Shown here: positions 1,329-25,970 of the stretch, piece by piece | Numbering within the stretch: the stretch's first letter is position 1 | How the letters are laid out: each line of letters starts with the position of its first letter | IMG/VR virus record: IMGVR_UViG_3300017706_001800 | Span: 1-26,526 of that record | Strand: one strand, 5' to 3' | DNA from: a virus | DNA length: 26,526 nucleotides | Translations under genes and position numbers: made by a program | Notes under the pieces: generated by a model | The model's database searches: none | The model's input: only the letters and a program-made list of their open reading frames with translations | Told to the model about the DNA's origin: nothing

Positions 1329-1376
1329 TTAATATACCTCACTTAATTCTGTTTATGTTTTTATGATGTCGTTGAG

Positions 1377-1384
1377 TATTTATA
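1377..1384 (-). promoter_or_regulatory. Possible late-type promoter box upstream of the partial structural gene
   Basis: The minus strand reads TATAAATA here, 49 bases upstream of the ATG at 1328, in a 103-base gap. The sequence equals the T4 late promoter consensus, but no phage sigma factor is visible in the window and AT-rich DNA produces such boxes easily. No good -35 hexamer is seen. Confidence 0.3.
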
Positions 1385-1431
1385 CCTGTTTTTAAAAAAC
1401 ATTTAACTGGCATAAACCTCGTGATTAGCTA

Positions 1432-3531
1432 TTAAGCGAAACCTACGTTTGCCTCAAGCTCAAATTGAACTGATATCATTGAATCAGCGTGTCCTGTATT
1501 AGGTATAGTAGTAATAACAACACCTACATATTCACCGTTAGCAATAGTTGATGAAGTGGTTTGTTTGCTTTGTCCTTGACCTAAAGTTCCTCCACTCCCA
1601 CTTGAATTATTTACTGTGAATCCACTTCCAAGTTGTGTCCATGTATTAGCAAGTGCTGCAGAATCATTAGCTGCTTTTACTAAACTCATAGTTAAAGATG
1701 CATTCATCATTGACCCAACCATTACGTGTGTTTGTTTTAAATCTATTGAGTTCCCTGTGCAGTTTCTTGCAAAATATATGCAAGCTTGCGAATCAACAGG
1801 ATGAGATAGATTACTTCCACTGAAAGATGATACGCTATTTGTTCTTGTAAGACCACCTGTAGAATAAATAACTCTTTGTTTTATTGTTGCAAATTCTAAT
1901 GAAGTTTCATTTGTGCCAACAGAAGAAGCATACATAACAGAATTAGCAGCGCCACCTGCAGGAGGTAATAACATTGTATGTGAAACACCTTGTTTGGTTT
2001 GTGTTGATAGAATTATCTTATCTCCACTTGAATCAACAATACTTAATTTACCAGCAGTTGATGCTGTAGTTGCTCCAACGATTACTTCGTCTGATGTTAA
2101 GTCAATATGACCTGAAACTTGACCATTCTCACCAGCTTTAATCAATAATGTTCCAGCTGCTCCATCGTCTTGAATTGTTGCAAAATCTTCAAACATTGCG
2201 TTCCCTTGGATTATCGCAACGTCTCCTATAGTTACATCATCTGAAAAGTTCCCGTCTAATGCATAAACATTTCCATATCTATTTGAGCTTGATCCTAAAT
2301 GGACGCCAGTTGAAGCAGGGTCTAAGTCATATGCAGCATCTATAAGTAATTGATTACTTCCATTAGATGTTAAACCATCAATGCCTGCTGCAGAAACGTC
2401 TGCTTCTAATTGCCATCCACCAGCTGAAGAGTCATACTTAAGTATTTGATTATCTGCAGGAGTTCCGCTGAAATGTGGAATACTATTTGTGCTTTGAAAC
2501 TTTAATACGTTTGAATCAACAGATAAACCACTTGTTCCAAGATATAGATTACCATCACAGTATATATCTCTTACAGCATTCCCTGTGCTTCCTATATCAA
2601 AAGCATTGTTAGTCCCCGGTATGAAATCATCTCCTGAATCAATACTCCAGTTAGCTGCAGCGAATCCGTTAGAAGCATCAGCTATTTGTATTTGATATTG
2701 ATTACCTGCAGATGTTCCTCCACCACCTCCTAATGATAATTCAGCAGCAGACTTAGGCACCCAAGCACCTGTATCATTATCGCCACTATCATCAGTTGCT
2801 GTTGGATTCCAGACTAATAAGTCATTAGCTACAGGTGTATGAGTTGTTGTATCAACGTCAGCTAATTCTGTGATTGATACCTCATTCATCTTTTCTAAAG
2901 CAGCTGTTTTAACGTGATTACGTAATACGTTTGTTTGTGCGCTTGTTAGATTACCATTAGCTGAGTTGTTTTGTAATACAGCTGATAACTGCTCGGTTGT
3001 TATTGCTAAGAAATCATTGCCGCTTGTTGAATCAGTCGGTCCAGCAACAGTTGCTATTTCTGCTGCTGTCGCTATTTCAACATCACCACTTGCTAAGAAA
3101 GTTGCTGGTGTGCTATTTAATCCTTCAACAACATCAACAAGCTTCCAGTATTGAGGATGCCAATTGCGTTGTGATTTAGAAGGCTTTTCTAAGTCTTTAT
3201 TTGTTGATTCAACTCTTATGTCAAAGAATGAGTTAAGAGGTGCCTCAAGTGGGTTAGAAGTTGATGATTCATTCGTTGCAAGATTAGTTGCGATACAAAA
3301 TATTCTATATGAACCCCATAAATCAGCAGCTAATGAAACAGAAGAGCCGACTAAAGCTGATAATGTTGCTGTTGATGAAGGTGGCTTATCAATAATATGC
3401 CAACTAAAATTAAATGATGCTCCTGAATCACCACTATCAGTCCCAACCCCTGTTAGTGTTATTGTTTGTGGTAAATTTTCTTGTGATAATGGTTGAGCCA
3501 CGTCAGAAGAAATTGCTATTGTTACTGCCAT
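1432..3531 (-). CDS. Tail fibre-like protein with PKD-like N-terminal domain
   Basis: This 699-residue protein is probably a virion fibre or appendage. Residues about 20-85 look like a PKD/Ig-type beta-sandwich: FSWHIIDKPP, then a Ser-rich turn, then LAADLWGSYRIFCIATN, matching the W-x-x-x-x-x-P ... D-x-x-G-x-Y-x-x pattern. Residues 220-265 (DVDTTTHTPVANDLLVWNP) and 355-378 (PADNQILKYDSSAGGWQLE) are two copies of a short fibre motif. Residues 310-332 and 410-432 carry two copies of an (I/L)GS-x-x-N-x-x-(R/G)-x-(I/V)Y-x-x-GN motif that is common in tail fibres. A Gly run lies at 268-272. The C-terminal 130 residues are Ser/Thr/Asn-rich and likely beta. An AAAGGA site lies 9 bases before the ATG, and only 12 bases separate it from the preceding gene. 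No receptor-binding specificity can be read. Confidence 0.8.
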   Translation of the reverse strand: MAVTIAISSDVAQPLSQENLPQTITLTGVGTDSGDSGASFNFSWHIIDKPPSSTATLSALVGSSVSLAADLWGSYRIFCIATNLATNESSTSNPLEAPLNSFFDIRVESTNKDLEKPSKSQRNWHPQYWKLVDVVEGLNSTPATFLASGDVEIATAAEIATVAGPTDSTSGNDFLAITTEQLSAVLQNNSANGNLTSAQTNVLRNHVKTAALEKMNEVSITELADVDTTTHTPVANDLLVWNPTATDDSGDNDTGAWVPKSAAELSLGGGGGTSAGNQYQIQIADASNGFAAANWSIDSGDDFIPGTNNAFDIGSTGNAVRDIYCDGNLYLGTSGLSVDSNVLKFQSTNSIPHFSGTPADNQILKYDSSAGGWQLEADVSAAGIDGLTSNGSNQLLIDAAYDLDPASTGVHLGSSSNRYGNVYALDGNFSDDVTIGDVAIIQGNAMFEDFATIQDDGAAGTLLIKAGENGQVSGHIDLTSDEVIVGATTASTAGKLSIVDSSGDKIILSTQTKQGVSHTMLLPPAGGAANSVMYASSVGTNETSLEFATIKQRVIYSTGGLTRTNSVSSFSGSNLSHPVDSQACIYFARNCTGNSIDLKQTHVMVGSMMNASLTMSLVKAANDSAALANTWTQLGSGFTVNNSSGSGGTLGQGQSKQTTSSTIANGEYVGVVITTIPNTGHADSMISVQFELEANVGFA

Positions 3532-5093: not shown

Positions 5094-6506
5094 TTATATT
5101 GTTGTATTTACTGCGATTGAAGATGAATCTGCTCTCAAGGTATGCTTAGCACTTGCAGGGAAGATGTCTTCTAAAACTGTATCTGTTGTTGCAACCTTTA
5201 ATCTACAAGATACTATAGGTTGTGTATTCATTAGATGCTGAACGAGTGTTGCTGTTCTTAATTCTTGACCGATATCAAGTTCATTTATATAGTCAATGCA
5301 AGCTAATCTAACTGCTTCTCTTAAATCTTCTGTATTTCTATCAGGTTGCACTATTATTGAAACATCGAATTTAGCAATCGTTAGCTCTGGATTCACGATT
5401 CTTACTCTTGTTCCTGCGGCTCTGAATCCAGTTAAAACTGCACCATTATTCACATTGCCTTCAATTTCTTCTTGAAGTTCTGCGATTAATCCTCTATGAA
5501 CGTTGATTCGTTTAATTTTTAAAATATCATCTGATTGTAAGAATCCATCCTTAAAGAATATTAGACCTCTTTCTGGGATTGATACGAAATCTTGCTCTCT
5601 TATCACAACTTCAGCACCGCCTCTTGTTATCTCAAGTTGAGATGCTCTAACAGGCTCTGTTGCAGGTCTTGCATGACTGAAATATCTACTTCCATCAAGA
5701 GAAACTGTATATTGTATATCGCCAACTCTTTCTGTCGGAGGTGAAGCTAATCCACTTCCATCATCAACAACCAATTCAGCGTATCCGGGTTGGGTTGGAT
5801 CTTCGAAGATTCTTGCAAACTTAAATGATACGTTTTGTGATGAAACAAAAGAAGTGCCTAAAAATTCAAGTGCAGATTTAGATACTCTTCCTAATGAGTT
5901 TATGTATCTTAATGCTCTGTTTCTTAGAGATATATCTGTTTCTAAATCAATACCGTTTCTAATAACTGCAGTGTTAGTTACAGCTATAATTTGTTCTGGC
6001 ATTGAAACGATAGTATCGATTGCACCAAGGTTTGCATTTGCAATAGCACCTGAAGAATTAGCAACAATATAAACGTTGTCTAAATCAGCAATTCCGCCTG
6101 GCATTGTTACTTGCTGTGCAGTTCTATATTGCTGGCCGCTATTACCTTGAGCTACAACACTTCCTGCAGGAATTATCAATGCTGTATTATAATCAGCATG
6201 AGTTGAATCACGAGTAATCTTTAATGAGCTCCCAGCAGCATTTGTGTCTCTCTTCCTTGAAATACCTATAGGAGGAAGCTCAGCACAACGTGCATCAAGT
6301 TCTGACCCTGTAGAGTTTTGTAAAGAAAAACCTCTGCGAAGATTAAACATTCTTGCTTCAGTATTTGCTACTTCCATTGAAATAGCATTTAGAATAGTAA
6401 AAAGTGTTGAGCCAACATTTACATCGGATAAATCAGTTCTTGATACTACCTTTGCTGTTAAATCTCTAAGCACTTGTTTTTGTGTTCTTGGAACGAATAC
6501 AGGCAT
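5094..6506 (-). CDS. Baseplate J-like (baseplate wedge) protein
   Basis: This 470-residue protein matches the baseplate J / gp47-like wedge family of contractile tails, including P2 gpJ and Mu gp47. Visible hallmarks are the N-terminal segment about residues 13-75 (VVSRTDLSDVNVGSTLFTIL, then AISMEVANTEAR, then NSTGSELDARC), the following beta segment with ALIIPAGSVVAQGNSGQQY near residue 110-130, IANANLGAIDTIVSMP near 160, and a DISLRNRALRYINSLGR helix near 190-205. The C-terminal third has the usual alternating beta-alpha ending (VRLACIDYINELDIGQELR). The length is normal for the family. It forms the wedge arms linking hub and periphery in the baseplate. AGGAGG lies 10 bases before the ATG, and a TATAAT-like box lies 21 bases upstream. 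Confidence 0.92.
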   Translation of the reverse strand: MPVFVPRTQKQVLRDLTAKVVSRTDLSDVNVGSTLFTILNAISMEVANTEARMFNLRRGFSLQNSTGSELDARCAELPPIGISRKRDTNAAGSSLKITRDSTHADYNTALIIPAGSVVAQGNSGQQYRTAQQVTMPGGIADLDNVYIVANSSGAIANANLGAIDTIVSMPEQIIAVTNTAVIRNGIDLETDISLRNRALRYINSLGRVSKSALEFLGTSFVSSQNVSFKFARIFEDPTQPGYAELVVDDGSGLASPPTERVGDIQYTVSLDGSRYFSHARPATEPVRASQLEITRGGAEVVIREQDFVSIPERGLIFFKDGFLQSDDILKIKRINVHRGLIAELQEEIEGNVNNGAVLTGFRAAGTRVRIVNPELTIAKFDVSIIVQPDRNTEDLREAVRLACIDYINELDIGQELRTATLVQHLMNTQPIVSCRLKVATTDTVLEDIFPASAKHTLRADSSSIAVNTTI

Positions 6507-8505: not shown

Positions 8506-8559
8506 TGTGCGTTATCCTTTCTTAGAACATTAAGGTGTATAATCATTTATTTAGTAAAA

Positions 8560-8576
8560 GTTTAACTGTGTTAAAC
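8560..8576 (-). terminator. Possible weak terminator after the spike-like gene
   Basis: A perfect 7-bp stem, GTTTAAC with GTTAAAC, encloses a 3-base loop. On the minus strand it is followed by TTTTACT. It lies 11 bases after the stop at 8587, in an 81-base gap. The stem is AT-rich, so termination may be partial. A dyad binding site is the alternative reading. Confidence 0.4.
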
Positions 8577-8586
8577 GTCATAACTC

Positions 8587-9435
8587 TCACGTTGGTGTTT
8601 TAGGTAATTTAATTGTTGTGCATAAAGCAGCAGCCTGTTCTTGTCCAGTCTGTTGTTTAGTTCTTAAAGGTAATCCTTGAAGTGTTGTGTTTCTGGATGT
8701 TGTTGATTGATGAGCCACGACTTGTGTATTATATGCAGCAGCAGCTGTTGTTGCTGCAGCAATCAAACCTGCAGGACCACCAGAAACACAAGCATCATAA
8801 AAAGCTTTTGCCGCTGCACTTTCAGTAGCTGTGAATCCAGAAATAATACTCATCATTTCTCTTAGGTCATCTTGTATATCTCTTATTTCATCAAGATAAT
8901 CATTTATAGCAGTAATATATGCCGCACCTTTCAGAGGATAATCTTCACATAAACCTTTTTTACTTATTCTAAGGATACCACTTGGCCCTAACTGTAATCT
9001 AATGTCTTGAGTAGAAGATTGTGTTATACCGTAATCTTGTGAAAGATTTATTTTGTTCCCTTTATTAGAAATAATATAATCACTTGCAACAACAGATTCT
9101 CTATCAAAAGAATTATCAGAAAACTCTACGTTTCTACTTACTTCAATTTTTGAAGGTTTATATACAGTGCCAAGTATATAAGGCTGAGCGTTGTGTGATG
9201 TTTGCATTATATATACTTCATTACCTACATCATAAGAAAGTTTTGTATATGAATCAGAAGAACCGCTACCTTGGACTATAGATTCAACGCTTTTATGAAA
9301 ATTACCCATCATATCAACAACATCACAAACAACCATATTATCAACATTTCTTATTGAAACACGTGTTATGTTGCCTCTAACAATTGTTGGTCTTGCTTCG
9401 TTTGTTTCTAATGGTCTGTTTTTATTATTTAACAT
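8587..9435 (-). CDS. Baseplate spike / central hub OB-fold-like protein
   Basis: This 282-residue protein is likely the membrane-piercing spike or its OB-fold base, as in gpV-type proteins. Residues about 20-95 show an OB-fold-like beta pattern: IVRGNITRVSIRNVDNMVVC, a DMMGNFHKSV turn, and YDVGNEVYIMQTSHNAQPYI followed by LGTVYKP. The middle (residues 110-165) contains IISNKGNKINLSQDYGITQ, like the switch into a beta-helical or gel-like spike. The last 110 residues are Ala/Thr-rich and predicted helical (AAATTAAAAYNTQ), which is unusual for a needle tip. Position after the hub-like gene and before the wedge genes fits. The RBS is AAAGGAG. The fold assignment is by pattern only. Confidence 0.65.
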   Translation of the reverse strand: MLNNKNRPLETNEARPTIVRGNITRVSIRNVDNMVVCDVVDMMGNFHKSVESIVQGSGSSDSYTKLSYDVGNEVYIMQTSHNAQPYILGTVYKPSKIEVSRNVEFSDNSFDRESVVASDYIISNKGNKINLSQDYGITQSSTQDIRLQLGPSGILRISKKGLCEDYPLKGAAYITAINDYLDEIRDIQDDLREMMSIISGFTATESAAAKAFYDACVSGGPAGLIAAATTAAAAYNTQVVAHQSTTSRNTTLQGLPLRTKQQTGQEQAAALCTTIKLPKTPT

Positions 9436-15066: not shown

Positions 15067-15471
15067 TTACATTTTAAAAGCTTTTAACATTTCAGAAACG
15101 TTATTACCATTACCAGCTGCAAGTTGTTTCTCCATTTCAAGAATGAATGGGTCATCTTTAACACTTTGTGGAAGATTATCAATCTTTTTATCCATAGTGT
15201 TTCTTTTATATCTTGCAAGTTTTTGGTATTCTGATAATGATTTAGAATTTAGGTCTTCTAATTTTTGTTTTCGTTCTTTCCAGAGAATATTAAATTGAGT
15301 GTCCTCAAGTTTAAGCATACACAGCTCAAGGTTCTCCCAACAAGTAATATCGCTAGCGCTTAGAACAGGTAATGGTGTAATCTCTAAAGAGTTTCTAATC
15401 AATGGAAAACCTGGGCTTTCCCTCTGCTTTCTTATTCGTTCTACTACTGTTTCGAAAGAAACGGCTCTCAT
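15067..15471 (-). CDS. Second tail-assembly-chaperone-like frame (probable frameshift extension)
   Basis: The frame overlaps the end of the previous gene by 77 bases, in the +1 (equivalently -2) phase. It can be read from the ATG at 15471, but it is open back to 15489. AGGAGG at 15486-15491 lies 14 bases before this ATG, longer than optimal, so independent initiation may be weak. The product is 134 residues and mostly helical and charged (VVERIRKQRES, LWKERKQKLEDL). Location between tail tube/first chaperone frame and the tape measure is exactly where phages encode the G-T style extension made by ribosomal frameshifting. It ends 13 bases before the tape measure ATG. Whether it is expressed alone, as a fusion, or both cannot be decided by reading. 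Confidence 0.65.
   Translation of the reverse strand: MRAVSFETVVERIRKQRESPGFPLIRNSLEITPLPVLSASDITCWENLELCMLKLEDTQFNILWKERKQKLEDLNSKSLSEYQKLARYKRNTMDKKIDNLPQSVKDDPFILEMEKQLAAGNGNNVSEMLKAFKM
15395..15471 (-). other. Candidate programmed frameshift window between chaperone frames
   Basis: Upstream frame and downstream frame overlap here. Two codon pairs would allow a +1 slip that keeps codon-anticodon pairing. TTT-CGA at 15457-15452 moves from TTT to TTC with a slow CGA next. CCC-AGG at 15415-15410 moves from CCC to CCA with a rare-type AGG next. The first would join directly after the helix HESRFF. The usual -1 heptamer (X-XXY-YYZ) does not help, because -1 is the wrong phase. A -2 slip is also formally possible. 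Confidence 0.45.
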
Positions 15472-15871
15472 GATCGAGCAATTTACCTCCTATAGAAAAA
15501 CAAAACTCTAAGTCTTCACCTGCTTTTTCTAAGAGCCATTCAACTGGATCTACTATTTGACAAATCATTCTTGCAACACAGATATAACGATTTCTTGTAT
15601 CAACTGGAAGTGTATCAAAAGGAACTCCTCCGCTTAAATCGCTGATAACTCTATCATATCTAATTCTCTCTTCGTGATTCATGATTCGTGATGTTACAAC
15701 ACTTTCCATATCACCTTTTGCATCATCTGTGTAGGTTACTTTAAAGTTCTCAATACGTTTTGCATATTCAAAATCATCTTCTAACTCTTTTTGAGTCTTG
15801 ATGTTTTTTAAATCGTTTGGACTTGAAATCTTCTGATCTCGTGCTTCTTCTTTTAACTTTACTAAATCCAT
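15395..15871 (-). CDS. Tail assembly chaperone-like protein, upstream frame
   Basis: This 158-residue, highly charged, mostly helical protein lies between the tail tube and the tape measure, the conserved place for the tail assembly chaperone that coats the tape measure during tail building. The body has the usual features: a helical region with RYDRVISDLSGG, FDTLPVDTRNRYICVARMI, then VDPVEWLLEKAGEDLEFCFS and a final helix with DHESRFF. The last 19 residues (from RNSSRT on) are basic and low in structure, like the short tail that is lost when ribosomes change frame. The ATG at 15871 has a GGGAGATGAG ribosome site close upstream. The sequence is not one I recognise, so the call rests on position, length, helicity and the overlapping second frame. 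Confidence 0.68.
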   Translation of the reverse strand: MDLVKLKEEARDQKISSPNDLKNIKTQKELEDDFEYAKRIENFKVTYTDDAKGDMESVVTSRIMNHEERIRYDRVISDLSGGVPFDTLPVDTRNRYICVARMICQIVDPVEWLLEKAGEDLEFCFSIGGKLLDHESRFFRNSSRTNKKAEGKPRFSID

Positions 15872-15912: not shown

Positions 15913-16064
15913 ACAGTAAATACGCTTTTATATAAACATTTTAACATTAAACGAAAAAAAGTATAATCTACTTAACTTTTAATTAGTTATTTAAGCATAC
16001 AAACCCTTACCTATTAGCTATACAAGTAGAAAAGAGAAAAGCTAGCAGCACTTCCACCTTTTAC

Positions 16065-16087: not shown

Positions 16088-16110
16088 AAATCTTTCAGCG
16101 AATACTAAAA

Positions 16111-16150
16111 AACACCCACAGTTTAACATAAAGGAAAAGAGATGGGTGTT
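16111..16150 (-). terminator. Terminator after the tail tube gene
   Basis: On the minus strand AACACCCA pairs perfectly with TGGGTGTT, 8 bp including several G-C pairs, with a 24-base AT-rich loop. The stem is followed directly by a T-run (TTTTAGT). It lies 62 bases after the tail tube stop at 16212 and ends the neck-sheath-tube unit. Confidence 0.75.
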
Positions 16151-16169
16151 TAATCGGATAATAAGAGAT

Positions 16170-16186
16170 GTTTAAACAGAGATAAA
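16170..16186 (+). repeat. 17-base inverted repeat, trailer copy
   Basis: The plus strand reads GTTTAAACAGAGATAAA. The identical sequence is on the minus strand at 20970-20986. This copy is in the 3' untranslated stretch of the neck-sheath-tube unit, between the tail tube stop and its terminator. In the minus-strand mRNA the two copies are complementary. Confidence 0.85.
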
Positions 16187-16211
16187 CGTCGTTATCCCTA
16201 TTATATTATTA

Positions 16212-16775
16212 TCAAGGTCTAACTACTTCTGTTGGAGGTTTATGACGAATCAGATGAGTTGCATCGACTGTGCATTGAACGCCCATCATTGACCCTCTAT
16301 CAACAACAATGTTTTGTGAAGAAATTCTGCATCCTTTAAGAGTATAAATTTCAACATCATTAGCAGCAGCATCAGTCCCAACAGCAGTTGGTCGAGCAAG
16401 AGAATTTGCAGCATCATAAATTGTTAAGTCAAAAGTTGGGAATGTTAAAACATCGTCAGTTCTTTGTTGTCCTGTTGATGTGGTATTCACTGAAGAATTT
16501 ACTACAACAACTTCGTCTGTATCTGTTGTTGATTCTAAGCCGTCAAAGTTGTCATTATCAGTATTAAAGATACGAATGAAATTTACTGTTGCTGAAACAT
16601 TGCGTCCGATTGGAACGATTTCACGTGTATCTACAAAGCCGAGTGAATCAACACGACCATTAAAGGTTACTTCTGAGATAGAAATACCTGTGGCATAACC
16701 TGCAATCTTTTCTGTCCCACCTGTCGGTGTGATTTTGATTACGGCTTTAGCGCCTGTTATTACATTTACAGCCAT
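16212..16775 (-). CDS. Tail tube protein
   Basis: The 187-residue protein directly follows the tail sheath gene (18-base gap), as the tube gene does in contractile-tailed phages. The N-terminal MAVNVITGAKAVIKITPTGG and GYATGISISEV, then EIVPIGRNVSATVNFIRI, show the alternating beta pattern of gp19/gpFII-like tube proteins. Near the end, LKGCRISSQNIVVDRGSMM followed by VQCTVDATHL fits the closing strands of the tube barrel. The length is in the normal range. It polymerises into hexameric rings forming the inner tail channel. The RBS is AAAGGA. A strong terminator follows at 16111-16150. Confidence 0.88.
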   Translation of the reverse strand: MAVNVITGAKAVIKITPTGGTEKIAGYATGISISEVTFNGRVDSLGFVDTREIVPIGRNVSATVNFIRIFNTDNDNFDGLESTTDTDEVVVVNSSVNTTSTGQQRTDDVLTFPTFDLTIYDAANSLARPTAVGTDAAANDVEIYTLKGCRISSQNIVVDRGSMMGVQCTVDATHLIRHKPPTEVVRP

Positions 16776-16793
16776 TTTAATTTTCCTTTCTTA

Positions 16794-18542
16794 TTATCTT
16801 AAGATGGTCGCGTTGATGCGAATAAAGTTAAGTGGATTAGTAAGTTGAACTTCGTATGAAGCTGTTGCAGTATCGCCTGATATTGCTACAGAAACATTTT
16901 GAAAATCTCTTATGATTCCACGAGTTCGATGTAAGACTAATCTTTCTTCGATTAGCTTTTTAAGAGAACCTAATGTTGTGTTGCTTATAGTTGTTCCTAA
17001 TTTTTGTGAAACATAAGCTCTTAAGTCTCTAACGTTCATATCAATTGATTCTTTAGAAGAAATCTCAATATCCTGAAGAAGATTAGATGAAGCTTTAGAA
17101 GTAAGACCTCTAACAACACTTAGTTGATTGTTGCTATTTAAGAAGATTCCTAAGATGCTTCTTTTAGCTAAATCGTGAATATCTAAGTCTCGGCTCCAAG
17201 ATTCTTTTGTATCAAGGATGTTAGGTTGCTTATTTGTAAGAGGGATTGCTGCACCTAATGCACCTTGACCACACATCATCAATACAGCCATATCAACTGT
17301 GTTGCCTACTCTTCTATTACCTTGATAGTCTTCATAAACAATATCTTGTGCAACAACAGAAACTCTGCTGTCATCAAGAGGAAGAACGTATAGGTTATAT
17401 ACTGCATCCAGTGTTTGACTTGATGGTGCAGCAACGTAAGCATTTCTTTCTTTAAGTAATCCTTCAGATGCATTACAATAGTCTCTAAGTAATTTATGAA
17501 CTGAAGCTGTTGTGCTTTCGATTGTGCAAGATGTGAAATCTTTACCGATAATAGCTCCATCCTCAAGAACAGATCTGAAGTTAGCAGTTGTTGCATCACT
17601 TTGTGTGCCGCCTGTAAGACTTAGCATATTTAAAGGTGCTGCATCTGCATTACCAGCTGTTGCAGTAAGAGGACGATATCTATCATCACCTAATTCTAAT
17701 TTAACTGGGAAAGTTGTAAGACGCTCAAGACCTTCTTCTAAGGCTTTAACATGAGCATGAAATACAACCTCAACAGGAGTATTTGCTGCAGTATCATCGT
17801 TAAATGTTGCAGTTAATTCATCAAGCTCTTCAGGTTTAACATCATAATTTAAAACTGTTGCAGCAAAACGAGAGTCTGTTGATTCAATAACTTGTTGTAA
17901 ATCATTCATACCACCTAATTCAGATAGGTCAATAGTTGTTGAGCCTGCTGAAGTTGTGATTACCATTGAGCCAGATGCAATTACTATGGTTGCATCTTGG
18001 TCTTGAGCACTATCATCAGTATAAACTACTTTGAGTTGATTCGGATAACCGAATTCTTGTGATGATAAAGGAAAGCCTGGTGCAGAAGCTCTAACACGAT
18101 AGAACTTTGTTGTAGCTGAAAGACCGATACCAGCAGGGTCTCCTGTCCCAGTTGAAGGTGTTTCAATTCTTACTCGTGCTTGATTACCCTTTGTGCCGTA
18201 ATAACGAGCTTTAAACTCACTGTCATCAACAGTTACAGCAGCTTGAGCAGACGTACCACAGTTTATGAGTGATAGGCTGTCTGAAAAGTTATCGATACCG
18301 CTCAATGAGAGGCGCCATAACTTATCGTAGTTTCGAATTTTTGCGACGTTTGGGTAAAGCTCTGCTAATGAAGAGCCACCCTTAACAGAAGTATAAACTT
18401 TACCACTTTCTAACTCAGGGAAGTCTCCGAAAATTGCCAAAGATTTACCTAATGCTGAAGGTGCCACAAGCTCATTCTGAACGTCTATAATAGTTACAGG
18501 GGCAAAAAAAGTATTTCCCTTGTATGTTTGAAATGTAGGCAT
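16794..18542 (-). CDS. Contractile tail sheath protein
   Basis: This 582-residue protein is the tail sheath, which contracts on infection. The N-terminus (GNTFFAPVTIIDVQNELVAP) fits a sheath start. The central part is an Ala/Thr/Asp-rich insertion domain. The C-terminal 110 residues hold the conserved sheath core: DMNVRDLRAYVSQKLGTTIS, GSLKKLIEERLVLHRTRGII, and ATASYEVQLTNPLNFIRINA, which includes the strand used for subunit linking. Gene order sheath-tube-chaperone-tape measure is typical. AGGAG lies 8 bases before the ATG, and upstream is an A9 run in the mRNA that may help ribosome loading. I am confident of the family. Confidence 0.93.
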   Translation of the reverse strand: MPTFQTYKGNTFFAPVTIIDVQNELVAPSALGKSLAIFGDFPELESGKVYTSVKGGSSLAELYPNVAKIRNYDKLWRLSLSGIDNFSDSLSLINCGTSAQAAVTVDDSEFKARYYGTKGNQARVRIETPSTGTGDPAGIGLSATTKFYRVRASAPGFPLSSQEFGYPNQLKVVYTDDSAQDQDATIVIASGSMVITTSAGSTTIDLSELGGMNDLQQVIESTDSRFAATVLNYDVKPEELDELTATFNDDTAANTPVEVVFHAHVKALEEGLERLTTFPVKLELGDDRYRPLTATAGNADAAPLNMLSLTGGTQSDATTANFRSVLEDGAIIGKDFTSCTIESTTASVHKLLRDYCNASEGLLKERNAYVAAPSSQTLDAVYNLYVLPLDDSRVSVVAQDIVYEDYQGNRRVGNTVDMAVLMMCGQGALGAAIPLTNKQPNILDTKESWSRDLDIHDLAKRSILGIFLNSNNQLSVVRGLTSKASSNLLQDIEISSKESIDMNVRDLRAYVSQKLGTTISNTTLGSLKKLIEERLVLHRTRGIIRDFQNVSVAISGDTATASYEVQLTNPLNFIRINATILR

Positions 18543-18574
18543 TGTTTTTCTCCTAATATATTAAAAGTTTTTTT

Positions 18575-19150
18575 TTAGTTATTGACGCTAATTGGTGATA
18601 CCACCCATGGGAACGACTGATCTGCTGGGAGTATAGGTTTAGCGTGAAGTTGTTTCTGTGCTAAGTAAGTAATTTCTCTACCAAAAACGCTTACGCCTTT
18701 ACCTATGATATCCTCATCAGGTCTAAGTTCTGTAGAACTAATAAACTCAACGTTTAGATACCCAGATTTTAGAAAGCTTTGTTTGAAAATCAGAAAAGCA
18801 GACTGAATCATTCTGTGAAGTGCTCTCAAAACATCTTTATCAGATGTATATAAACTAACTATGCACTCTTGATTCAAAAATAGAACTTTCTTTTCATTAT
18901 ACCCTTGATTACCCAACATCTGGTCTGCATCTGTTGTTGATTCAGCAAGTGAAGTTGTAATTAAAGGATACGAATCATGAGTGTTTGAATATGCACTATC
19001 ATATTTTATATCGAGATTCTGTATTTTTGCATATAATTTATCTGAATATGTTTGAGATATGTCATCAAAGATAGCTCTGAACTCATCTTGATTTTCTTGA
19101 TAGTATTTGACGCCGTTAGCTATACCGTGTATTAAATGTAAATCAATCAT
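18575..19150 (-). CDS. Neck / tail completion protein
   Basis: I choose the ATG at 19150 (MIDLHLIHG, 191 residues). It lies one base after the stop of the preceding gene, with a GGAAGTGG site upstream. A longer reading from 19189 would overlap the previous gene by 38 bases and add a Trp/Lys-rich stretch that looks like shadow coding. The protein lies last in the neck group and directly before the sheath, where the tail completion (tail terminator) protein normally sits. Its mixed alpha-beta pattern (VLFLNQECIVSLYTSDKDVL, ALHRMIQSAFLIFKQ) fits but is not diagnostic. No enzyme motif, signal or membrane segment is seen. The function is inferred from order. Confidence 0.65.
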   Translation of the reverse strand: MIDLHLIHGIANGVKYYQENQDEFRAIFDDISQTYSDKLYAKIQNLDIKYDSAYSNTHDSYPLITTSLAESTTDADQMLGNQGYNEKKVLFLNQECIVSLYTSDKDVLRALHRMIQSAFLIFKQSFLKSGYLNVEFISSTELRPDEDIIGKGVSVFGREITYLAQKQLHAKPILPADQSFPWVVSPISVNN

Positions 19151-19151
19151 T

Positions 19152-19946
19152 TTATTTATCCACTTCCATTTTAGCTTCTGCCTGAACAAGCATTGGTGAA
19201 AACACTTCTTGATTGTTCGTTCTTAAGAAAGTATCTCTTAACGTATGAGGATATTCTATTATTACATATGTCGGATTAGCGTAATATGAAATAGTTAGAT
19301 TAGTTCCTGCAGCAGGCTCACTTCCATTTAAAAATGTTATTGAAGCACCACCGGCATTTATTTGTATATCTTCTTGATTCACTCCTCCAGCAATTCCTAA
19401 ACCATCCACTCCACTTTTTTGTATATATAATACGCCTACGGGTGTTTCACCGCTGGCAAGATTTAAGTTTCTTGTAATAATAGGCCTTGAAGGAGTTATA
19501 TTAACACCAGCATTAGGCATCTTAAGTGTTTCTCTAAAAACTATAACAGAATCTTTAAGTGTTATTCTATCACCATAACTTAATAAATGTTCTGGCTCTG
19601 TTGTAATTTTTATTTTTTCTTGTTTAAGTAATCCGTATTTACCACTTACTTCTTCACCTGAAGCTGATGTTATCAGTGCTTTTATTGTTTGTGCTGAATG
19701 TCTAACGATTCCTATACCGTTGCATATTGTGCAATCAGGAGCATAACCACTTGAATTTACGTCCGAATCAACAACTTCTAATAAGTCTAATCCATAGTTT
19801 GTTGATGATTTAATTGAGCAAGGACACTCTAATGCTTGTTCCCAAGTAATATTTAGTCCTTTTTGTTGTATAAGTTTTCTAAACTCAACAACTTTAAAAT
19901 CTGCACGTCCTTTATTAAGAAGTTGCGCTGGTAAAGGGAATAACAT
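19152..19946 (-). CDS. Head-completion / neck protein with a CxC...CxxC metal-site pattern
   Basis: This 264-residue protein follows the head-tail connector-like gene with a TAATG overlap and an AGGAGG-type site, so translation is probably coupled. Residues 36-80 hold Cys41, Cys43, Cys72 and Cys75 in EQALECPC ... DCTICNGIGI, a zinc-ribbon-like arrangement seen near the N-terminus of several phage head-closure proteins. Residues about 85-260 look beta-rich, with VGVLYIQKSG and NLTISYYANPTYVIIEYPHT. It probably seals the portal after DNA packaging. The zinc site is deduced from spacing only. Function is inferred from position. Confidence 0.65.
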   Translation of the reverse strand: MLFPLPAQLLNKGRADFKVVEFRKLIQQKGLNITWEQALECPCSIKSSTNYGLDLLEVVDSDVNSSGYAPDCTICNGIGIVRHSAQTIKALITSASGEEVSGKYGLLKQEKIKITTEPEHLLSYGDRITLKDSVIVFRETLKMPNAGVNITPSRPIITRNLNLASGETPVGVLYIQKSGVDGLGIAGGVNQEDIQINAGGASITFLNGSEPAAGTNLTISYYANPTYVIIEYPHTLRDTFLRTNNQEVFSPMLVQAEAKMEVDK

Positions 19947-20947
19947 TAGAATCCTCCTGCAATCTTAGGAACCTTATATTTCTTCTTTACAGAAGCTAAT
20001 GCCATTTTCAGTTGTCTTTCATAACTCAAGATACGAGCTCCATAACCAGCTGAAGTTGCTGAAGATGTGGATGCTATGTTTTGACTTAATCCATCAACTG
20101 CTAAACTAAATTGTCCTATACCTGCTCCTAATAGTAAATCACCTGCAGTGTCTAATGGAAGCATTGCTGATACGTATAAAATACATTTTACTAAAACAGA
20201 TGGCATAGTATGAATCTTTACTTTAATTATCATATCAGCAACTGCAGGAGTAATTGATGTTGTAGCAGAGAATCCTTCGTCTGATAGACCAAATGCTTTA
20301 ATCTTAGGAACGGGAGCACCCACGATGTTGCCGTTTCCATCATCTACAATCTCAAATATAAAATTAGGTGTATCTGTTAAAGTCTCACCAAACGTTAAAC
20401 CTGTTATCTCTGTTGAATTCTGTGGAATAGTTATTGTTTTCTCTATAAAGTTGAATCCAGAAGTATAGTCATATGAAAAATATCCAGGAACTCTTGAATA
20501 ATAAGCTCTTTCTGCCATCGGATCTAATAGAAGAGGTATAACGTTATTAAAGTTAAATGTCCCAACACTCTCTGCTGTCGGGATTAAATGAACAGACCCA
20601 CCTTCTGGAGATGTAATATTTATCCATACTTGAGGAATTTCAACTGGCTGGTAATTACCATAACTTATTGTAAGTTTATCAACACTTCTAAGTGGTCTTT
20701 TATCTAACTGATTCGGATAGAATCCACGTGCTTGGTCTGAATCTAAGTCGTGTCGTTCCTTTTTCGTGCTGAAAGGATTAATAGTTATTTCTAACTCTTC
20801 CTGCATCATAGAAATCGCTTGTGCTATAGATTGCTCGAATAAGTCATCAGGATATGCACTTCCATCATCTAACGTTAAATCAATACCAGCAAGCATTGTA
20901 TTTTTCAATAAATCAACTGTGATTATGTCGAAGACGTCGATTGCCAT
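19946..20947 (-). CDS. Head-tail connector / adaptor protein
   Basis: The 333-residue protein is the first gene after the capsid terminator. The N-terminus (FDIITVDLLKNTMLAGIDLT and FEQSIAQAISMMQEELEITI) is the helical part of gp6-type adaptor folds. The C-terminal portion ILYVSAMLPLDTAGDLLLGA, then FSLAVDGLSQNIASTSSATS and YGARILSYERQLKMALASVK, resembles a pattern (DGLSQ-x-I ... SA ... Y-x-x-R-I) I associate with virion neck proteins of large myoviruses. It likely docks on the portal. It shares a TAATG junction with the next gene. AAAGGA precedes the ATG. The family link is from memory of the pattern and is not certain. Confidence 0.7.
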   Translation of the reverse strand: MAIDVFDIITVDLLKNTMLAGIDLTLDDGSAYPDDLFEQSIAQAISMMQEELEITINPFSTKKERHDLDSDQARGFYPNQLDKRPLRSVDKLTISYGNYQPVEIPQVWINITSPEGGSVHLIPTAESVGTFNFNNVIPLLLDPMAERAYYSRVPGYFSYDYTSGFNFIEKTITIPQNSTEITGLTFGETLTDTPNFIFEIVDDGNGNIVGAPVPKIKAFGLSDEGFSATTSITPAVADMIIKVKIHTMPSVLVKCILYVSAMLPLDTAGDLLLGAGIGQFSLAVDGLSQNIASTSSATSAGYGARILSYERQLKMALASVKKKYKVPKIAGGF

Positions 20948-20969
20948 TGTAATCCTTTCGTTATTCTGT

Positions 20970-20986
20970 TTTATCTCTGTTTAAAC
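20970..20986 (-). repeat. 17-base inverted repeat, leader copy
   Basis: The minus strand reads GTTTAAACAGAGATAAA, 23 bases upstream of the connector ATG. It is identical to the plus-strand sequence at 16170-16186, so it is complementary to the trailer of the same transcript. It sits just ahead of the ribosome site, so pairing could affect translation start. Confidence 0.85.
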
Positions 20987-20997
20987 TTTAACAAACT

Positions 20998-21023
20998 TAT
21001 GTGTAATTTATCATACACACATA
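20998..21023. promoter_or_regulatory. Operator-like dyad around a TATGAT box
   Basis: TATGTGT and ACACATA, perfect 7-base arms, flank 12 bases whose minus strand contains TATGATAAAT, a possible -10. It lies in the leader region of the neck-sheath-tube unit, after the capsid terminator. It could be a binding site overlapping a promoter, or an RNA hairpin. Confidence 0.35.
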
Positions 21024-21065
21024 GAAGTAAAAACAGAGCTGCTTATAGATGTCGATAAAAAAATA

Positions 21066-21101
21066 GCCTCGTCGAATGGGGAGAGAAACATCCGTTGAGG
21101 C
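21066..21101 (-). terminator. Strong terminator after the major capsid gene
   Basis: On the minus strand GCCTC pairs with GAGGC, extended by further pairs to 13 positions with two mismatches and one G-T wobble. The loop is about 10 bases (TTTCTCTCCC). The stem is followed by TATTTTTTT. It lies about 90 bases past the capsid stop at 21192. Confidence 0.85.
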
Positions 21102-21191
21102 CTAAAAAAAGAAATTCATCTTGTTTTTAAAAATAAAATACATATTGAAGTTAGGCTGCATTGTCTCCCGAGCTTAGCATACCTAAATATG

Positions 21192-22709
21192 TTATTTGCT
21201 TACGTTTCGCAATACGAAGTTCTTGCGCGCAACCTTTACTGAAGGAGCACCGAACATCATCAAAAGGAATTGTTGAGCAGCGCCAACATTTGCCAAAGGA
21301 CGACGAATGAAATCGAGGAGACGAGCAAATTCGATACATTGTGGGTCCATTTGAGAGATAAGAACGCTTGAGCAATCATTTCTCTCAAATCCTGCGTCAA
21401 ACCAAGGAGCTGCAACAATTTCAGCAGTCTTAACTTCACCGATAAGCTGTGCCTGACGAAGACATTGTGCATCGCTAAGGTTGCCCTTACAACGATAGAT
21501 ACGAACGTAATCAGCAACACCAGCAGAAGGACCAGCAAGTTGGAACTTAGGAATTTGACCGTCGTGTGCATCAACAGAAGCACTCATAAATGGCGCAGAA
21601 TAACCTTTTTTATTAACATATACGAATACATAGCGATAATCACCTTGGTGCTCGCCATTACCAGTTGGATCCCAGCCTACACCAGTAGCAAGGTCAGCAT
21701 TGATTGCAGTTACAGCAGCACGATAATTACCGTCAGTATCAATACCTTGTGAAGTGAAATCATTACCAGCTGCATCACTTGGAAGAGTGAAATCAGATCC
21801 AGCAGACTTAACACGAGGTGGAGCAAGACGACGACTGATAAATGGAGCAGCTACAACAGGTACGGGTCCCATAGGTCCCATAATGTGGATACGAGGTCCA
21901 GCACCTAAAGTATGAACGCCTTGGTCTCCTTGTCCTACAAGAACCATAGAATCATGACGACCGTTAGCAGCTGAATCAGCAATCAATTTACTGTATGCCT
22001 TAGGAGACATAAAGATTGCGTCAGGAGCACCAAAACGAGGAGCTGAATATAACTCACCAAGAACTTCGTGTAGTTTGCTACCAGTTAAAGCAGCACCTTG
22101 TAGATCTTCTTGATTATCAGAGTAATCACGACCGAAGTTGAAAGGATTACGGACGCCAGCGTCGCTACGCTCAATTTGCTTAAGAACACCATCAAAAGCA
22201 AGAGGATTAACATCTTCATCACCGTGGAAAAGTTGAACTTCCATTTTGCGAAGAAGGCTCATTGTTCCGCGCTCGGTCTCTTCAGCTAAAGCGTCAGCGT
22301 TAGGTCCTACGATACCAACAAGAGTAGAAACATCAGAAATGCTTCTTTTCTCTGCTAAATATTTAATCTTTACTGATTTTCTTTCATACTGACTTGCAGA
22401 TGCACCGAATTCACTTCCACCACCTTCAGCGATGAATGGGTCAAGGTCTTCACCATGCTGTGAAATTACAGCATACTCATGAAGAGTATTACTTGCTTGA
22501 ATCTTAGGAAGCATTGGCCATAGAGCCAAATCACGCATAGTGTGAGCAGCAGAAGCTAAAGTTCCTTCGATTGATTGTGCTACGAGAGGAGCAAGTGAGC
22601 CGGAGCCCATTGAGTTGCTTTGATAACCAACTTGGCTATTTTTGCGTAAAGAGTCATTTAGACGGGTCAATTCATTGATAGTTACATTTTCATTGATATT
22701 AGGTAACAT
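21192..22709 (-). CDS. Major capsid protein (HK97 fold) with an Ig/FN3-like insertion
   Basis: The 505-residue protein is the shell subunit. An N-terminal arm with helices is followed by DLALWPMLPKIQASNTLHEY and a region rich in Gly (FIAEGGGSEFGASAS), then YERKSVKIKYLAEKRSISDV, the typical start of the HK97-type body. FGAPDAIFMSPKAYSKLIAD and PRIHIMGPMGPVPVVAAPFI belong to the A/P domains. Residues about 325-435 look like an inserted beta-sandwich: NYRAAVTAINADL, YRYVFVYVNKKGYSAPFM, VADYVRIYRCKG, then AQLIGEV, resembling FN3/Ig-like decorations. The body resumes near IEFARLLDFIRRPLANVGAA and ends with FVLRNVSK. It follows the scaffold gene by 12 bases, with AAGGAG upstream. Codons look more G/C-rich than its neighbours, as for a highly expressed gene. 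Confidence 0.9.
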   Translation of the reverse strand: MLPNINENVTINELTRLNDSLRKNSQVGYQSNSMGSGSLAPLVAQSIEGTLASAAHTMRDLALWPMLPKIQASNTLHEYAVISQHGEDLDPFIAEGGGSEFGASASQYERKSVKIKYLAEKRSISDVSTLVGIVGPNADALAEETERGTMSLLRKMEVQLFHGDEDVNPLAFDGVLKQIERSDAGVRNPFNFGRDYSDNQEDLQGAALTGSKLHEVLGELYSAPRFGAPDAIFMSPKAYSKLIADSAANGRHDSMVLVGQGDQGVHTLGAGPRIHIMGPMGPVPVVAAPFISRRLAPPRVKSAGSDFTLPSDAAGNDFTSQGIDTDGNYRAAVTAINADLATGVGWDPTGNGEHQGDYRYVFVYVNKKGYSAPFMSASVDAHDGQIPKFQLAGPSAGVADYVRIYRCKGNLSDAQCLRQAQLIGEVKTAEIVAAPWFDAGFERNDCSSVLISQMDPQCIEFARLLDFIRRPLANVGAAQQFLLMMFGAPSVKVARKNFVLRNVSK

Positions 22710-25818: not shown

Positions 25819-25970
25819 TTTGGATTCCTACTTGTATAGCTATAGGGAATGGTATTTATGTATATATTGTTATTATATTCTGAAGGATATACTTTATCTG
25901 TTTGTTTATTAGATAGTGATTCCCACAAATCAATTTGTTTTTGTAATTCGTCGTATTGTTTTTGTGTCAT
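25815..25970 (-). CDS. Small 51-residue protein, translationally coupled
   Basis: ATG at 25970 has GGAGAG 7 bases upstream, and the frame runs 51 codons to TGA at 25817-25815. The stop overlaps the next gene's ATG as ATGA, a typical coupling junction. The N-terminal half is helical and polar (MTQKQYDELQKQIDLWESLS); the second half is Tyr/Asn-rich (YNNNIYINTIPYSYTS). No family is recognised. It may be a small head protein or may mainly keep ribosomes on the message. Good RBS and exact overlap make it likely real. Confidence 0.7.
   Translation of the reverse strand: MTQKQYDELQKQIDLWESLSNKQTDKVYPSEYNNNIYINTIPYSYTSRNPK

Follow-up and report, generated by a model that had tools for sequence, protein, structure and literature searches.

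Genes, terminators and the 17-base inverted match

The window analyzed here, a 26.5-kb virus record, carries on its minus strand a major capsid protein gene (21192..22709; PHROG 752, E 3e-39), a gene in the connector position (19946..20947), a tail sheath gene (16794..18542; PHROG 279, E 1e-20), and a putative tail-tube gene (16212..16775). An initial annotation had named the last three genes as connector, sheath, and tube. The sheath label agrees with the PHROG match, but the other two labels stand less firmly. The connector-position gene is related to SPO1 gp6.3 and also matches a family labelled tail fiber. The putative tube gene found no match in the family search; its product is assigned from gene order, as the gene is kept beside the sheath gene, and from a beta-rich, low-confidence structure model (mean pLDDT 55), which was not strong enough to support a fold search. 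Between the tube gene and the next large gene lie two overlapping minus-strand genes (15067-15471 and 15395-15871), at the usual site of frameshifted tail assembly chaperones, for which a family search also gave no match.

The initial annotation placed a terminator at each end of the connector-to-tube unit, and inspection finds both. The intrinsic terminator of the capsid unit lies at about 21066..21102 (minus strand), and a second, AACACCCA...TGGGTGTTTTTT, lies at 16107..16150 (minus strand). Both are missing from the list of our automatic scan because that scan accepts loops of at most 8 nt. The terminator stems are kept in relatives although the sequence has changed. A separate observation concerns the CTCTCCC loop of the capsid terminator, which complements an upstream GGGAGAG (window minus strand, 21190-21066, and the capsid trailers of relatives); changes in the two motifs apparently match in relatives, and a pseudoknot or antiterminator 3' of the capsid gene is possible.

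The 17-mer GTTTAAACAGAGATAAA occurs at 16170-16186 (plus strand), in the trailer of the tube gene, and at 20970-20986 (minus strand), in the leader of the connector gene, exactly where it had been reported. A search of the whole window with up to 3 mismatches returned these two sites and no third. Shuffled sequences gave 0.29 expected matches, and two were reached in 5 of 100 shuffles. No other pair in the list of the window's 25 longest inverted pairs is fully exact. An exact inverted match of at least 17 bases appeared in 4% (order-2) to 9% (order-3) of simulated windows and is thus no more than mildly unusual. The position of both copies in untranslated gaps is another matter: in 200 trials with simulated stretches of leader and trailer size, the longest common match was 12 nt, and a chance match between the two gaps is therefore unlikely. 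That chance, aided by the self-complementary GTTTAAAC, produced the pair is hardly credible to us. The frequency of such matches in whole simulated windows speaks for it, but the two copies both sit in gaps, and both fit an independently defined element, described below, at its standard spacing. The 17-mer is also carried by a 147-kb contig (L033) unrelated to the group, most likely by chance.

A dispersed two-box element

IMG/VR scans and alignments of the capsid and tube proteins identified about 20 contigs, all of them fragments, that share gene order with the window. In L004 the leader of the connector gene is identical to the window's. A composite pattern scan of IMG/VR returned eight loci, four of them group members and four with neither protein similarity nor a box. 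No DNA relative of the window was found in the GenBank phage collection, and of three proteins tried, the connector alone matched GenBank phages, which were SPO1-like, at about 26% identity.

We think it probable that both 17-mers are boxes belonging to two copies of a dispersed intergenic element of about 88 bp. The element consists of two inverted boxes of about 26 bp, with core CTCTGTT / AACAGAG, and a TATAAA(C/T)ATAT-like centre. The first box approximates CACGASGTTTANCTCTGTTTAAACTT; the second is its inverse, with core AACAGAG or AACTGNG. Strong copies number 34 in 15 contigs. A weight matrix of the trailer box gave 57 matches, 39 of them in the 12% of DNA that is noncoding, versus 1 for the reversed matrix. 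A 60-column matrix gave 67 matches versus none, and in it the TATAAA(C/T)ATAT-like centre stands at a fixed index; 11 of 42 copies carry TATAAACATAT at a single index.

The geometry of the element is equally regular. A search for box pairs 45-94 bp apart, which made no use of complementarity, found all 13 clean intergenic facing pairs at 62 or 63 bp, a count that, like the other distance and placement counts given here, overstates the number of independent events because sites in orthologous gaps are non-independent. No outward-facing pair appeared in that search, and when the second box was tested less strictly, the best distance was 62 or 63 bp in 19 of 21 cases. Anchor distances peak at 57-58, with a second peak at 67-69, one helical turn away. 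Among the orthologous connector leaders, both distances occur in the window and in L023, and only the longer in L025, L026, and L021. Spacings that differ by about 10.5 bp favor a protein bound to a single face of the DNA. Some copies have no clear second box.

Four copies lie in the window, all on the minus strand. Copy 1 (16105..16193), 3' of the putative tail-tube gene, consists of a first box (16193-16168), the centre GATTAAACAC, and a degenerate second box (16130-16105) whose AACTGTG core falls within the terminator, which overlaps the second half of the copy. The minus-strand form of the trailer 17-mer, TTTATCTCTGTTTAAAC, is the core of the first box. Copy 2 (20963..21050), in the connector leader directly downstream of the capsid terminator, has boxes 62 bp apart: half a first box (21050-21025; partial CTCTGTTTTTACTT) and a second box (20988-20963) whose core is the leader 17-mer. 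Copy 3 (1335..1423) starts 8 nt past the stop of the gene at 1432-3531 and has its boxes (1423-1398 and 1360-1335) 63 bp apart, with a perfect TATAAATA in the centre. Copy 4 (8557..8582) is a first box only, 4 nt past the stop of the gene at 8587-9435. The match between leader and trailer would then follow from the shared consensus of the boxes, read in one direction in the first box of copy 1 and in the opposite direction in the second box of copy 2.

The initial annotation had favored a different account, in which the 17 nt of leader and trailer pair across 4.8 kb of a single mRNA, circularizing or masking the message. The exact complementarity within the window and the 200 simulated leader-trailer pairs, none matching over more than 12 nt, speak for this account. 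The relatives, however, argue strongly against a conserved long-range pairing and largely refute it. They keep the genes and the trailer copy (directly 3' of the tube stop in eleven lineages, as ACGACGTTTATCTCTGTTTAAAC or variants), but their connector leaders hold at most AAACAGATAAC-like remnants, and neither a complementary leader nor a compensating change is seen. When their gaps were compared for covariation, as the annotation had suggested, each relative's own leader and trailer were complementary over 7-10 nt, the same as mismatched leader-trailer pairs. The window leader, moreover, matches the trailers of L025 and L026 over 20 nt, versus 17 nt for its own, and the leader box has a partner close at hand, CTCTGTTTTTACTT, which lies 57 nt upstream within its own element. 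A single 4.8-kb mRNA would have two terminators to respect as well. Given that own pairs do no better than mismatched ones and that foreign trailers fit better, we regard the long-range pairing as very improbable. The annotation's second suggestion, a duplicated protein-binding site, comes close to the data, with the difference that the sites are members of a two-box family dispersed through these genomes. More generally, long exact complementarity can stem from two copies of a repeat rather than from RNA pairing.

An antisense RNA derived from the trailer and acting on the connector leader was also considered and rejected, as it has no conserved complement among relatives. A second inverted match in the window is a matter of its own. 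Positions 15996-16032 (plus strand), a stretch 3' of the tube terminator, match 25825-25860 (minus strand) at 31 of 37 positions (89% against L004) and thereby complement the DUF5824 gene's leader and ribosome site. In L022, a sequence different from, yet related to, the window's (15326, plus strand) is exactly complementary over 27 and 22 bases to leaders of the corresponding region, at 6064-6090 and 6144-6165 (minus strand). Because complementarity is kept despite the changed sequence, this match is a candidate for a trans-acting antisense RNA or another repeat family.

Paired boxes as possible RNA or DNA signals at gene ends

If the two boxes do not pair across an operon, they could pair with each other. 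A local RNA hairpin between the first and second box of a transcript might affect termination, stability, or the next ribosome site. Single copies can indeed fold strongly: complementarity is strong in several (for example, G011+56296, G019+12346, and L020+2600), a strong hairpin is predicted in the window leader, and box positions 9-12 covary (p=0.001, post hoc). Over 22 sites, however, the boxes as pairs score no better than swapped ones (own 13.9 versus swapped 14.2, p=0.72), with the outer positions below chance; RNAalifold predicted no consensus pair across 17 copies, among them the two that hold the 17-mers; and the box distances are fixed to helical turns. We accordingly rejected the hairpin between boxes as a common feature of the family and consider a local RNA role improbable, although the strongly folding copies may have one. 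A small hairpin within one box was likewise rejected, as it showed no covariation (p=0.32). Since the boxes show neither overall covariation nor a consensus RNA fold, the best reading appears to be a paired protein-binding site on DNA, located at the boundaries of transcription units.

The placement of the copies bears on what such a site might do. In co-directional gaps, 19 of the 20 sense copies start 2-20 nt past a stop codon, versus 3.1 expected under an even distribution within gaps. In 33 divergent gaps there are no copies, where 6.8 would be expected by length on the same assumption, and convergent gaps contain several (one listed as convergent, G005+20603, is actually a tube gap). The gene calls behind these counts come from a simple longest-ORF script, which may have overlooked small genes. 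Copies stand downstream of genes from about 15 unrelated families, with the tube position common to 11 lineages, and intrinsic terminators lie within or just 3' of many copies.

The 3'-end placement, the avoidance of divergent gaps, and the fixed helical phase together suggest that a putative protein may bind the paired boxes on one face of the DNA and that the bound element would form a boundary between transcription units. As the centre is -10-like, the element may also be, or contain, a promoter. A version in which it is chiefly a promoter cassette would combine a T4-late-like -10 (TATAAA(C/T)A) with an activator box at about -38 and would yield operon transcripts or short ones. The fixed index of TATAAACATAT or TATAAATA and the perfect TATAAATA of window copy 3, with CGACATC just downstream, are consistent with this. 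It fits poorly, however, with the absence of copies from all 33 divergent gaps and their presence between convergent genes, with a distance to the next start that varies from about 25 to 470 nt when that to the preceding stop stays within 2-20 nt, and with G017+49722, where a ribosome site directly follows the centre. We find a promoter cassette somewhat unlikely, and the boundary version holds a small lead over it. Our tentative proposal is thus that these uncultured tailed phages may mark the ends of transcription units with a two-box element whose boxes, six and sometimes seven turns apart, present one helical face to a putative protein that would act as a directional boundary, or as a boundary plus promoter. 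If the proposal holds, a specific DNA-binding protein and particular transcript ends are to be expected, and the positions of the elements indicate how the late genes of the phage may be divided up. The elements offer a searchable regulatory code for a group that lacks close relatives in the GenBank phage collection searched.

Further signals lie in the same gaps. On the sense strand, CGACATC is overrepresented in gaps and often follows a terminator closely (window minus strand, 21054 and 1371); 28 of 35 sense occurrences fall in the 9% of DNA that is noncoding, versus none of 7 antisense, and it could be a transcript-start or leader signal. A conserved ATGnnGATACCC...GGTGGAGCC is found 3' of an inverted element copy at G005+8156, L011+1308, G011+13093, G018+18292, and G015 position 344; it resembles a structured RNA, and no Rfam match to it was present in the relatives searched. 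Irregular AACTTAAAT-type repeats follow a convergent-gene terminator in G018 and G019 (G019-4124 and G018-9136).

Relation to known dispersed elements

The element is apparently undescribed. Rfam gave 0 matches above the gathering score in the window and 140 kb of relatives, and our literature searches returned papers on analogues and none on the two-box element. A BoxA/nut-like antitermination site, suggested by a resemblance of CTCTGTTTAAAC to boxA, was considered and set aside.

Several known systems share some of its features. The attC sites of integrons, also found in phages, are likewise inverted-repeat sites past stop codons (PMC9892861). Unlike them, the element has a fixed length, and the outer attC boxes are missing in nearly all copies, on which ground we rejected this assignment: 3 of 34 first boxes have RYYYAAC in place and 3 of 22 second boxes have GTTRRRY, and no copy has both anywhere. 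The integrase IntI (TIGR02249) is absent from 13 partial contigs, although attC sites can occur without it. The REP/BIME repeats of bacteria are, like the element, extragenic and quasi-palindromic; they too form facing pairs and are found between convergent genes as well as at 3' ends (PMC2817692). The element, in contrast, has few copies per genome; the GTAG foot at the base of the REP palindrome occurs in 0 of 34 copies and the REP-associated Y1 transposase (RAYT, PF01797) is absent from 12 partial contigs, and this assignment was also rejected.

Two other systems come closer. The L5-type stoperators of mycobacteriophages are, like the element, asymmetric, scattered among short gaps, and aligned with the direction of transcription, and they have been proposed to halt elongation; each is a single site of 13 bp to which the monomeric repressor of a temperate phage binds (PMC9283540). 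Many oriented copies in short gaps are found here as well, but the element, unlike a single site, has two inverted boxes at a fixed 62-63 bp. The PeSL cassettes of T4-type phages, reportedly described by Arbiol in 2010, are said to be dispersed and intergenic, to join a terminator stem-loop to a promoter-like segment, and to have strong sigma70 early promoters. In our system terminators overlap many copies and the centre reads TATAAA(C/T)A, with no -35 box seen. The element differs from a PeSL in its paired box, in that centre, and in its location at 3' ends, mostly in structural-gene regions. By analogy, then, the element would work most like stoperators or PeSL cassettes, and we assign it to neither.
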